From positions 1 to 23,850 of IMG/VR virus record IMGVR_UViG_3300027741_000265: DNA of 23,850 nucleotides, one strand, 5' to 3'. Below are positions 4,184 through 9,663 of this stretch, piece by piece; within the stretch, counting starts at the first letter, position 1; every line of letters begins with the position of its first letter. This stretch comes from a virus. A model generated the notes under the pieces. It did no database searches. It had not been told where the DNA came from and saw only the letters and a program-made list of their open reading frames with translations. The translations under genes were made by a program, and so were the position numbers.

Positions 4184-5953
4184 ATGTTTAAAATAAAAAC
4201 CCTGGCAGTCAAAAACTTTATGAGTGTGGGCAATTCCACGCAGGCCGTCAAATTTGATCGACGCGATCTTACCCTGGTATTGGGTCAAAACCTAGACCTA
4301 GGCGGCGACGATACCGGTGCACGTAATGGTACTGGCAAAACCACCATTATCAATGCACTCAGCTATGCCTTGTACGGCAGTGCATTGACCAATATCAAAA
4401 AAGACAATCTGATCAACAAGACCAACGGCAAAGGCATGTTGGTCACTATTGAGTTTGAAAACAACGGTACAGAGTACAAGATCGAACGTGGACGCAAACC
4501 CAATACCATGGCGTTTTACATCAGCGGACAAGAACAAGAAATAGCCGATGAAAGCCAAGGCGATTCAAGAGAAACGCAGGCCGCCATAGAACGTATGCTG
4601 GGCATGAGTCACGAAATGTTCAAACACATTGTGGCTCTCAACACTTATACCGAACCATTCCTTAGCCTAAAGGCCAATGATCAACGTGCCATCATCGAGC
4701 AGTTGTTGGGCATCACCATGCTCAGTGAAAAAGCCGATGCACTCAAAGAGCAGGCCAAGGCCACCAAGGAAGCCATAACAGAAGAAGAATATCGTATCAA
4801 AGCGGTAGGAGATGCCAATGCTCGTATACAAGAACAAATTGCAAATTTGATACGTAGACAAGGGCTCTGGCAGACCAAACACGCAGAAGATGTTGCAGGT
4901 CTACAGTCGGCCTATGACGAACTGGCCAAGTTGGACATTGAAGCAGAATTGGTTGCACATCAAAATCTAACCAAACACAGTCAACTGTTAAAAGATCGCG
5001 CAGACGTTGAAAAAGCACTGGCCAGAGCCAGAACAGATCTTGCACGTGAATCAAGGTCAGCAGAGCGTTTAAACAAAGACATTGCGGCCTTGGAGGATCA
5101 CAAGTGCCATGCCTGTGGTCAAGATCTACACGACACTGCACACGAAACACAGTTGACAGCCAAACAAGCAGAACTAAATACAGTTAACAGCAGTCTTGCC
5201 GAATTCAACGAACAAATAACAGCGTTTGAACAGGCACTCACAGAACTCGGCGCACCAGGACCTGCACCTCGCACATTCTACGATCGCGAAAGCGATGCAT
5301 TTGAACATCGTAGCAGTCTGGCCAGTGTGCTAACACAGTTATCGGCCAAACAGGCAGAAACAGATCCGTACACCGAGCAAATTGCAGATATGCGTGATCA
5401 GGCCCTGGAAGAAATCAACTATGATCTAATGAATGAACTGGTGCGTGTCAAAGAGCATCAAGATTTCTTGCTCAAACTGTTGACCAGCAAAGATTCATTT
5501 ATACGTAAACGCATCATTGATCAGAACTTGAGTTACTTGAACACTAGATTGGGACAATATTTGGATCGTATTGGTTTGCCGCACACTGTCAAATTCTTAA
5601 ACGACTTGAGTGTCAGTATTGAAGAACTGGGACGTGAACTGGATTTTGACAACTTGAGCCGAGGCGAGCGTAATAGACTTATACTGTCATTGAGTTGGGC
5701 TTTCCGTGATGTATGGGAAAGTCTATATCAGCCCATCAACTTGATGTTCATCGATGAAGTTATTGACACAGGCATGGATTCATCGGGTGTTGAAAACGCT
5801 CTAGCCATTCTGAAGAAGATGGCACGTGAAGGCAATCGTAGTGTTTGGTTGGTCAGTCACAAAGATGAACTGGCCGGACGTGTGAACAATGTGCTGAGCG
5901 TGGTCAAAGAGAATGGCTTTACTAGTTACAACACAGACGTGGAATCATCTTGA
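4184..5953 (+). CDS. 46: Recombination endonuclease subunit gp46 (Rad50/SbcC-like ATPase)
   Basis: This 589-residue SMC-like ATPase partners gp47. Walker A is GARNGTGKTT with Lys52. A long coiled-coil region rich in Lys, Glu and Gln (about residues 170-440) is interrupted by a zinc hook CHACGQ (Cys308, Cys311). The ABC signature is LSRGERNR (Ser492) and Walker B is LMFIDE (Asp524, catalytic Glu525), followed by a D-loop GMDSSG and a switch His in LVSHKDE. All catalytic parts are intact and the length is near that of T4 gp46 (560 aa). In the cell it forms an M2R2 complex at DNA ends. The last codons overlap the TTG start of the following SDR gene by 4 bases, so expression of the metabolic cassette is coupled to it. 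Confidence 0.94.
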   Translation: MFKIKTLAVKNFMSVGNSTQAVKFDRRDLTLVLGQNLDLGGDDTGARNGTGKTTIINALSYALYGSALTNIKKDNLINKTNGKGMLVTIEFENNGTEYKIERGRKPNTMAFYISGQEQEIADESQGDSRETQAAIERMLGMSHEMFKHIVALNTYTEPFLSLKANDQRAIIEQLLGITMLSEKADALKEQAKATKEAITEEEYRIKAVGDANARIQEQIANLIRRQGLWQTKHAEDVAGLQSAYDELAKLDIEAELVAHQNLTKHSQLLKDRADVEKALARARTDLARESRSAERLNKDIAALEDHKCHACGQDLHDTAHETQLTAKQAELNTVNSSLAEFNEQITAFEQALTELGAPGPAPRTFYDRESDAFEHRSSLASVLTQLSAKQAETDPYTEQIADMRDQALEEINYDLMNELVRVKEHQDFLLKLLTSKDSFIRKRIIDQNLSYLNTRLGQYLDRIGLPHTVKFLNDLSVSIEELGRELDFDNLSRGERNRLILSLSWAFRDVWESLYQPINLMFIDEVIDTGMDSSGVENALAILKKMAREGNRSVWLVSHKDELAGRVNNVLSVVKENGFTSYNTDVESS

Positions 5954-6465
5954 AAATTTTAATCACAGGCACTCGCGGACTGGCACTTGCCCTGGGCAAT
6001 GCCTATGCAGATCACTCAGTGACACTGGTTTCAAAATCAAACGGGTTCGATATCAACAATATCAAACAATGGGGCATTGAATTTTTAGACTATGATTGTG
6101 TGTTTAATTGTGCATATGATGGATTTGCACAGGTTGGTGTGTTGGAGTTTTTTTATCAGCACTGGAAACACAATCACAATAAAAAGATTGTGACCATTGG
6201 TAGTAGAGTTGTGACTCACAAACGTTCACAATCAGAGGACGGCTATTGGGCCTATCGAGCACACAAACAAGCACTACAACAGGCACATGATGCAATGTTG
6301 TTGGATGCCTGTTGTGACATGACTATTGTTCACCCTGGCCCCGTTGACACTGACATGATACAGCATCTTGACATTGTCAAAATGAATCCCAATGATCTAG
6401 CAATCACTATAAAAAACATTGTTGAGTTGGGCACAATCAAAAGAGTTGATCTATGGCAAATATAA
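5950..6465 (+). CDS. Short-chain dehydrogenase/reductase (SDR)-like protein
   Basis: The 171-residue product starts with a Rossmann strand and dinucleotide loop, MKILITGTRGLALALG (TGxxxGxG-like). It continues with an Asp-containing strand (GFDINN), a VFNCAYDG segment in place of the usual NNAG, Ser85 (TIGSRVV), and the catalytic pair Tyr102-x-x-x-Lys106 (YRAHK). A HPGPVDTDM segment (PG-motif) follows. So the Ser-Tyr-Lys triad is intact and NAD(P)-dependent redox chemistry is likely. It is shorter than usual SDRs (about 250 aa), mainly in the middle and at the C-terminus. TTG at 5950 is the start, overlapping the gp46 stop (TTGA); the next gene starts 13 bases before its end. The substrate is unknown; its radical SAM neighbours suggest one shared pathway. 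Confidence 0.75.
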   Translation: MKILITGTRGLALALGNAYADHSVTLVSKSNGFDINNIKQWGIEFLDYDCVFNCAYDGFAQVGVLEFFYQHWKHNHNKKIVTIGSRVVTHKRSQSEDGYWAYRAHKQALQQAHDAMLLDACCDMTIVHPGPVDTDMIQHLDIVKMNPNDLAITIKNIVELGTIKRVDLWQI

Positions 6466-8095: not shown

Positions 8096-9663
8096 ATCGT
8101 TTTGCATTTATCAATATTCCCAGTCAAGAGCTTGAGCGTCCACCGGCAGCGGCTGCGGCATTGAGTTCTTGCATTAGAGCAGTTGGGTGGGATTGCAAAA
8201 TTTTTGACTTCAATTTATTTTTGCATAAAAATGTCAACACTGAAATTTGGATAGAATTAGAATGCTACTGGAGATGCAAAAGTTTAGAACTGACTCCTGA
8301 TGCAAGAACACGGTTAGAACAGGTGATAGACCTGTTTATACAAGATGTCATACAATATCAACCAGACATGTTGGGCTTGAGTGTGTTTACCAGAATGAGT
8401 GTTATACCAGCTTGGGAACTGTTGCAACACATTAGGCCCAGGATTGATTGTCGAATTGTGATTGGCGGTAACGGTGCGTACTCTTGGCCGGGTGGCTTGC
8501 CGGCGTTGGAAAACATAGATAACAAAACCAATAGCTTTAGTGAATTTGCAAAGAATCACAATTTGATTGACCATTACATACACGGCGATGGCGAAGTAGC
8601 CATCATGGAATTGCTCAAAGGTAACTTGGACTATGCTGGCATCGATGGAATACCGCCAATACAGATAAAAGACATCACCAGTCTACCATATCCAGACTAT
8701 CGAGATATAGAACCCACAAATTATTTGTATACACACGAACCTGGAATGTATATTACAGCCAGTAGAGGCTGTGTGAGAAATTGCACTTTTTGTAATGTAC
8801 CTCAAATCTGGCCCAAATACCAATCAAGAACCGCCGACGATGTTGTAGAAGAAATCATCAGAGGCAAGACCGAATTTGGAGCAAATGTTTTTCAGTTTAC
8901 CGACAGCCTGCTCAATGGCAATATGAAAACCTGGAGAGAAATAAATCGCAAATTGATCCTGGCCAAAGATGCTGATCCAGCATTGGAATCCGTCAGCTAT
9001 CTTGGTCAATTTATTTGTCGCACCCGACTGGATCAAACAGAACGCGATTGGGAACTGATGGCACGAGCCGGGGCTGATATTTTGATCACTGGATTTGAAA
9101 GTTTTAGTCCTAGTGTGCGTAAACACATGGGCAAACACTACAGCAACGCTGATATAGATTTTCATTTTGCACAAAGTGCAAAACACGGAATCAAAAACGT
9201 GTGTTTGATGTTTGTGGGATACCCAACAGAAACTCAACAAGATCACGAATACAATATTGAATTTCTACATAGATATCAAAAATATGCCAAGGCCGGTATC
9301 ATACACATGGTTCGATGGGGATATACCGGAATGTTCAGTGCTACCAACAAATTTGGTACTGATACACAAGTAAAAATTGTCAATGATCCCGATTTTGCAA
9401 ACAAACTAAAAAATCTTCCCAAGGGCATCCGAGATATCGCATTGGGTTTTGGTTGGTTAAACGAAATGAATCCAACACTTACACTCAAAGAACGTATTAG
9501 ACGACGTTTAGAACTGCACGAACTCAGCGTCAAGTTGGGATGGCCGCAGACACGCAGTCGAGAAGAATTACAAATCCTATACAACATTTTGTCAAACTTA
9601 AACAAAAACACCATACAGATCGAAGACTTTGAAACACTAGAAACTTTGTTAGATTTCCATTAA
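8092..9663 (+). CDS. B12-binding-type radical SAM protein
   Basis: This 523-residue protein has the two-part build of cobalamin-binding radical SAM enzymes. Residues 1-190 form a Rossmann-like domain: RPPAAAAALSSCIRAVGW, then PDMLGLSVFTRMSVIPAW, then CRIVIGGNGAY and a HGDGEVAIMELL segment equivalent to the usual GEGE turn. I see no DxHxxG cobalamin histidine, which is often missing in this class. The radical SAM motif is CVRNCTFC (Cys227, Cys231, Cys234), followed by FTDSLLNG and LMFVGYPTET barrel strands and a helical C-terminus. Family members do methyl transfers, ring rearrangements or similar reactions; the substrate here is unknown. It is the last gene of the overlapping cassette that starts behind gp46. 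Whether cobalamin is bound needs testing. Confidence 0.85.
   Translation: MNRFAFINIPSQELERPPAAAAALSSCIRAVGWDCKIFDFNLFLHKNVNTEIWIELECYWRCKSLELTPDARTRLEQVIDLFIQDVIQYQPDMLGLSVFTRMSVIPAWELLQHIRPRIDCRIVIGGNGAYSWPGGLPALENIDNKTNSFSEFAKNHNLIDHYIHGDGEVAIMELLKGNLDYAGIDGIPPIQIKDITSLPYPDYRDIEPTNYLYTHEPGMYITASRGCVRNCTFCNVPQIWPKYQSRTADDVVEEIIRGKTEFGANVFQFTDSLLNGNMKTWREINRKLILAKDADPALESVSYLGQFICRTRLDQTERDWELMARAGADILITGFESFSPSVRKHMGKHYSNADIDFHFAQSAKHGIKNVCLMFVGYPTETQQDHEYNIEFLHRYQKYAKAGIIHMVRWGYTGMFSATNKFGTDTQVKIVNDPDFANKLKNLPKGIRDIALGFGWLNEMNPTLTLKERIRRRLELHELSVKLGWPQTRSREELQILYNILSNLNKNTIQIEDFETLETLLDFH

Follow-up and report, generated by a model that had tools for sequence, protein, structure and literature searches.

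The DNA examined here, IMG/VR record IMGVR_UViG_3300027741_000265 (23,850 bases, hereafter the window), comes from a large (jumbo) T4-like bacterial virus and carries a cassette of four overlapping genes on the plus strand, placed directly behind the recombination gene gp46 as the initial annotation of this stretch had described. A short oxidoreductase gene of the short-chain dehydrogenase/reductase (SDR) type (5950..6465, 171 amino acids, TTG start) and a gene for a twitch-type radical S-adenosylmethionine (SAM) enzyme (6453..7559, 368 amino acids, Pfam Radical_SAM 45 bits) make up what we call module I. Module II consists of a CBM60-like protein that ends in a helical tail, referred to as UNK (7559..8095, 178 amino acids, with an in-frame ATG at 7544 as an alternative start), and a B12-type (class B) radical SAM enzyme (8092..9663, 523 amino acids, Pfam Radical_SAM 70.6 bits).

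A base-by-base check of the junctions confirmed the four overlapping reading frames at the places first claimed: gp46 and the SDR gene share TTGA, the SDR and twitch genes share 13 bases, the twitch and UNK genes meet in TAATG, and the UNK and B12 genes in ATGA. Across the viral relatives described below, all 62 of 62 SDR/radical-SAM junctions could be read with a start codon yielding an overlap of 4-13 bases, a count obtained with a script that favours short overlaps. The initial annotation went too far in taking the overlaps to imply stoichiometric production; they suggest translational coupling, no more. Compared with the relative L003, the ratio of nonsynonymous to synonymous substitution rates was 0.154 for the SDR, 0.079 for the twitch enzyme, 0.054 for UNK and 0.031 for the B12 enzyme (gp46, 0.029; portal, 0.025), and values of 0.03-0.15 indicate that all four genes are under purifying selection.

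Two gene pairs in one slot

Scans of viral sequences yielded 441 candidate stretches for the B12-type and at least 587 for the twitch-type enzyme. Loci were collected from viral contigs via the twitch enzyme, UNK and the B12 enzyme, deduplicated to 106 loci, all of them fragments, and their genes were mapped. An SDR-type gene lies directly upstream of the twitch gene in 62 of 72 cases and is drawn from more than one SDR family, with c16 and sdrX among the replacements and c16 of locus L027 clearly matching adh_short. A small same-strand partner stands beside the B12 gene in 72 of 73 cases, comprising 26 UNK and 31 c14 genes upstream, the remainder being unkX or c33 and mostly downstream; 25 loci were recovered via UNK itself, so that the UNK-partner count is not independent there, but it was the B12 gene that led to the c14 and c33 partners and to most of the unkX ones.

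Both radical SAM genes are present in 35 of the 106 loci, the twitch gene without the B12 gene in 37 and the B12 gene without the twitch gene in 34. The order SDR-RSAM-UNK-B12 (RSAM being the twitch gene) occurs in the window and in L003, L004, L005 and L036, and the order UNK-B12-SDR-RSAM in L019, L060, L079, L089, L091 and L109. The SDR-RSAM pair stands alone in L006, L008, L011 and others, and the UNK-B12 pair alone in L037, L038, L039, L070, L071 and L080. Since the pairs are found alone and in both orders, the four-gene order is one combination of two mobile pairs, and the cassette is two separately moving modules that share the slot between gp46 and a SegE-type endonuclease gene in uncultured jumbo T4-like phages. 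The single four-gene pathway proposed at the outset is not supported by two pairs that move independently, with many relatives carrying one pair only. Co-occurrence of the same genes in other phages holds strongly within the pairs, which supports their functional coupling, and more weakly for the set of four.

Bacterial relatives of module I were reached through a species-genome scan with the B12 alignment, which led to Bdellovibrionia chromosomes. Of 143 genomes of this class, 6 encode a protein closely related to the twitch enzyme (E under 1e-60), and all six carry an SDR gene near it on the same strand, in either order: adjacent in L293, L300, L301 and L302, at a distance of about 400 bases in L299 and one gene apart in L292. 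In L293, the twitch and SDR genes sit beside genes for a flippase-type Polysacc_synt membrane protein, a sugar epimerase, two GT4 glycosyltransferases and a PhyH dioxygenase. Large chromosomal clusters on the Bdellovibrionia contigs L288-L292 and L294 contain many twitch/SPASM-like genes together with genes for B12 radical SAM enzymes, QueC-like PP-loop proteins, a SIS-domain isomerase and a carbamoyltransferase; a search of the open-access literature found no paper on Bdellovibrio SPASM clusters. Small contigs assigned by binning to Flavobacterium, Rickettsiales and an archaeon (L210, L215 and L216), some of them probably viral, also carry the B12 gene with an UNK-family gene.

The enzymes and the partner protein

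The catalytic motifs, initially noted as intact, proved invariant at their active-site residues across homologs, and the division of the radical SAM enzymes into a twitch-type and a B12-type was borne out. In the SDR, S85, Y102 and K106 of the Ser-Tyr-xxx-Lys motif are invariant in 18 homologs. The protein matches an NCBIfam SDR family with E 2.1e-08, under that family's cut-off, and falls short of the curated Pfam adh_short family (16.3 vs 26.6 bits) and of the classical length (171 vs about 250 residues); it is therefore SDR-like by its motifs and not a classical SDR member.

All 55 homologs of the twitch enzyme keep its CX3CX2C motif (C19/C23/C26). Five cysteines near the C-terminus had been pointed out initially; C266, C284, C348 and C352 are likewise invariant, while C334 is kept in only 23 of the 55. 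Four invariant cysteines fit one auxiliary cluster, as in twitch enzymes, and not the two of SPASM enzymes, where about seven cysteines are expected; the Pfam SPASM score is 16.5 bits against a cut-off of 21.5. The AlphaFold2 model (pLDDT 91.6) aligned best to SPASM/twitch enzymes, with Z-scores of 18.3 for SuiB, 18.0 for BlsE, 17.3 for anSME, 17.3 for DesII, 16.8 for MoaA and 15.1 for BtrN. Because these matches span peptide and sugar or sugar-like substrates, the fold alone names no substrate. BtrN, a dehydrogenase of butirosin biosynthesis, has an auxiliary cluster with four Cys ligands and carries out a two-electron oxidation of an aminocyclitol alcohol (PMC9012708). The window enzyme resembles it in combining CX3CX2C with a single four-cysteine C-terminal auxiliary site, but is longer, shares 12% identity over the aligned residues, and has an SDR pairing that we have not seen described for BtrN; nor is BtrN a unique match, as other twitch/SPASM enzymes fit the fold equally well or better. 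Among cultured phages, the twitch enzyme has only matches of 27-30% identity, in Campylobacter phages and Pelagibacter phage Mosig.

In the B12 enzyme, CX3CX2C (C227/C231/C234) and G125/G126 are invariant in 47 homologs. All its matches to NCBIfam B12-binding radical SAM families lie far under the cut-offs, with alignments starting at residue 73 or 159, and the best of them is a C-methyltransferase subfamily of ribosomally synthesised and post-translationally modified peptides (RiPPs). By sequence it matches the TsrM-like tryptophan methyltransferase 6wte (E 2e-08) and AprD4 of the apramycin pathway (6fd2, E 5.6e-04), and it is a probable C-methyltransferase. With B12 radical SAM C-methyltransferases and their relatives (GenK, acting on gentamicin, AprD4, TsrM and the RiPP family rSAM_ocin_1) it shares a radical SAM core, here preceded by a putative B12-type region at the N-terminus; it differs in scoring far below every named family and in having a small CBM60-like partner gene. 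It had no match in cultured phages at E 1e-5, and a divergent relative (L025) gave weak matches only, to two unannotated faecal phage records.

UNK, listed initially as an unknown protein, can be identified as CBM60-like by its predicted fold. An AlphaFold2 model built from 37 relatives (pLDDT 86) had only two strong Foldseek matches in the PDB, 2xhh (E 5.6e-05) and 2xfd (E 2.2e-04), both of CBM60 type. Structural alignment (VIA) gave Z 10.0 and 9.9 to CBM60 entries over residues 1-139 and 4.7 to the next entry; the best alignment had a root-mean-square deviation of 3.2 A over 109 residues. Comparison of the UNK profile with PDB chains by sequence gave nothing convincing, so that the match came from the fold search alone. 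Independent support from sequence came from a few relatives, among which Pfam CBM60 (PF16841) was the family most often matched (4 of 37, best E 6.2e-04). These results support a CBM60-like fold without placing UNK in the CBM60 family, and its sugar binding is a prediction. Like CBM60/vCBM60, a calcium-dependent xylan- and cellulose-binding module, UNK has a predicted beta-sandwich over residues 1-139; unlike it, UNK shows 9-10% identity, stands alone, carries an extra helical tail, and is paired with a radical SAM enzyme and not with a glycoside hydrolase. Only K52, D67 and G121 are invariant across the 37 relatives, and no match was found in cultured phages at E 10. Profile comparison showed that the UNK, unkX and c33 partners are homologous, and c14 is probably homologous to UNK as well.

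A natural fusion of a B12 enzyme with an UNK-like domain was considered in L157 (6345-8408, 687 amino acids) and was not confirmed (profile comparison probability 0.3%). Genes that look by eye like pyridoxal phosphate (PLP)-dependent aminotransferases, with no Pfam match, alternate with CBM60-like partners in L037 (6887-9412), L038 (6922-9465) and L102 (13026-14087), and the small partners may serve enzymes besides the B12 one.

The phage and its cargo slot

The gene for the gp46-like recombination endonuclease subunit (4184..5953, plus strand; PHROG phrog_77, E 2.6e-107) is the left border of the cargo slot, and its product is 50% identical to the counterpart in Pseudomonas phages such as PA5oct. 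The SegE-type GIY-YIG endonuclease gene (9700..10128, plus strand; Pfam SegE_GIY-YIG 118.8 bits) is the usual right border; gene maps place it after the cassette in most relatives, and the slot of most uncultured relatives is bounded by these two genes. Between the window gp23 and its counterparts in jumbo myoviruses (Sinorhizobium phage Phosso, Vibrio phage 2.275.O, the Pseudomonas PA5oct group and Erwinia phages) identity is 65-71%; the portal is about 50% identical to jumbo myovirus portals, and related contigs are up to 342-353 kb long. The window, PA5oct and Phosso have in common the backbone gp47 - gp46 - slot - baseplate hub - structural protein - portal; in the latter two, which are cultured, the slot is filled by other genes with no annotated radical SAM gene among them. 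Among the further cargo in phage slots are members of the epimerase, RmlD, GDP-mannose dehydratase and sulfotransferase families.

Radical SAM cassettes have been described in hypervariable regions of pelagimyophages, beside genes of lipopolysaccharide (LPS) type (PMC7029224). The likeness lies in radical SAM gene cassettes within variable islands of T4-like aquatic phages with LPS-type genes adjoining; the pelagimyophage genes were reported as radical SAM proteins, with no module logic described, whereas here two defined pairs occupy another slot in another lineage.

Several other genes near the slot or elsewhere in the window deserve mention. The gene before gp47 (2310-3155) has a sub-threshold match to DUF6071 (E 9.4e-05), and relatives repeatedly carry genes like it close to the slot. 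The major capsid gene gp23 is immediately followed by an unassigned gene for 367 amino acids (20257-21360); the likeness of this gene and of c24, c26 and c42 to glycosyltransferase family 10, noticed by eye, was unsupported in Pfam, PHROGs and PDB sequence searches. Between gp47 and gp46, L037 (460-4704) encodes an AMP-ligase-like protein, a TctC-type periplasmic receptor and both subunits of a Rieske ring-hydroxylating dioxygenase, which is unusual metabolism for a phage, and AMP-ligase-like and TctC-receptor genes recur beside gp46 in the related jumbo contigs L070 (3219-5626), L080 and L071. Many relatives also carry near the slot a recurrent block of DUF6875-like, ATE/GNAT-like aminoacyl-transferase, DUF6614 and arginine-deiminase/amidinotransferase-like genes (L011:13328-15395, L027:14976-16240, L034:13980-15259 and L003:436-2527), which looks like a separate small biosynthetic module.

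What the modules may do

We infer the substrate, reactions, product, target glycan, activity and benefit of the modules from sequences and predicted structures. The initial annotation had left the substrate as a sugar, nucleotide, lipid or peptide; the CBM60-like fold of the near-obligate B12 partner, the module I copy found within a polysaccharide locus, and the presence of sugar-nucleotide and sulfotransferase genes in the other cargo favour a sugar or glycan and make the other three less favoured. We hypothesize that the slot holds two independently mobile sugar-tailoring modules, a reading to which we give an even chance of being right. Most likely, module I would oxidise and re-reduce (epimerise) a sugar carbon and module II would C-methylate a glycan. 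In module I, the deoxyadenosyl radical would abstract hydrogen from a hydroxyl-bearing carbon of a sugar or glycan, the single auxiliary [4Fe-4S] cluster would accept the second electron to give a ketone, and the SDR would reduce the ketone with NAD(P)H, leaving the centre inverted; alternatively, the SDR may act first. In module II, the CBM60-like partner would hold a glycan chain or a glycan-bearing acceptor while the B12 enzyme methylates an unactivated carbon of the sugar. Glycans modified in this way, on either the virion or the surface of the host, could then mask receptors or exclude superinfecting phages. More tentatively, the B12 radical SAM enzyme may act on polymer-bound glycans aided by a stand-alone, near-obligate carbohydrate-binding partner, as an interchangeable module spread by phages beside a twitch/SDR epimerase module; if true, this would be a new architecture for radical enzymes.

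Several observations count against sugar tailoring. The window slot has no proven glycosyltransferase of its own, and its UNK protein has no Pfam CBM60 (PF16841) match. The B12-binding domain scores weakly (Pfam E 0.067), 10 of the 72 twitch genes have no direct SDR neighbour, and the peptide enzymes SuiB and anSME are structural neighbours of the twitch enzyme at equal Z. Only one of the six bacterial twitch and SDR pairs lies in a clear polysaccharide locus, the others being found among radical SAM and other genes.

The peptide enzymes among the top structural matches, together with the sub-cut-off RiPP match of the B12 enzyme and its near-obligate pairing with UNK, could instead point to peptide or protein maturation, in which a ribosomal peptide is the target of the radical SAM enzymes or UNK is itself the B12 substrate, for instance as a C-methylated virion lectin. 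We consider this rather unlikely, as the overlapping genes leave no space for a precursor peptide inside the cassette, UNK is highly variable outside its three invariant residues, with no obvious common target site, and partners are also seen downstream of the B12 gene and next to the PLP-enzyme-like genes. The modules might also belong to auxiliary metabolism and supply the infected cell with a small molecule, either cofactor-like or a lipid, unrelated to surface glycans. Transporters, AMP-ligases and the Rieske dioxygenase in the neighbouring cargo of relatives would fit such a role, as would the resemblance of the Bdellovibrionia clusters to small-molecule biosynthesis loci, with their QueC-like PP-loop proteins and carbamoyltransferase; the CBM60-like partner and the polysaccharide-locus copy indicate sugars instead, and we regard this role as unlikely.

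Some phage base modifications involve radical SAM enzymes, and the cassette adjoins the DNA-recombination gene gp46 ahead of the structural genes, so that hypermodification of phage DNA bases against host restriction, with the radical enzymes and the SDR elaborating a nucleotide or DNA base, has to be weighed too. It is less likely than the sugar or glycan reading and quite improbable in our view: the partner fold is CBM60-like, the bacterial copy of module I sits in a polysaccharide locus, one or both modules are missing in close relatives, and the thymidylate synthase/hydroxymethylase family PF00303 was found in only one of eight related phage records, four of which measure 342-353 kb and any of which may be incomplete. 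Finally, viperins rank high in the Foldseek search with the twitch model and PADLOC reports a pVip match (E 1.7e-08), as for a viperin-like nucleotide enzyme in phage-phage or phage-host conflict. The match covers residues 11-158 of 368, which is the shared radical SAM core and not the full length of the protein; SPASM/twitch structures outscore viperins in structural alignment, and a C-terminal four-cysteine auxiliary site is not known as a viperin feature, so this role appears very improbable.

In the open-access literature that we searched, we found no account of this module logic, of a CBM60-like partner or of the parallel in bacteria, and no paper on phage B12 radical SAM enzymes. Phages are known to tailor glycans, but the systems described in the papers searched do not include one in which a phage C-methylates or epimerises glycans by radical SAM chemistry with the aid of a dedicated carbohydrate-binding partner. 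If true, the sugar-tailoring reading would provide a testable function for hundreds of unassigned viral radical SAM genes and for an unnamed protein family, and would suggest how aquatic jumbo phages diversify surface sugars.

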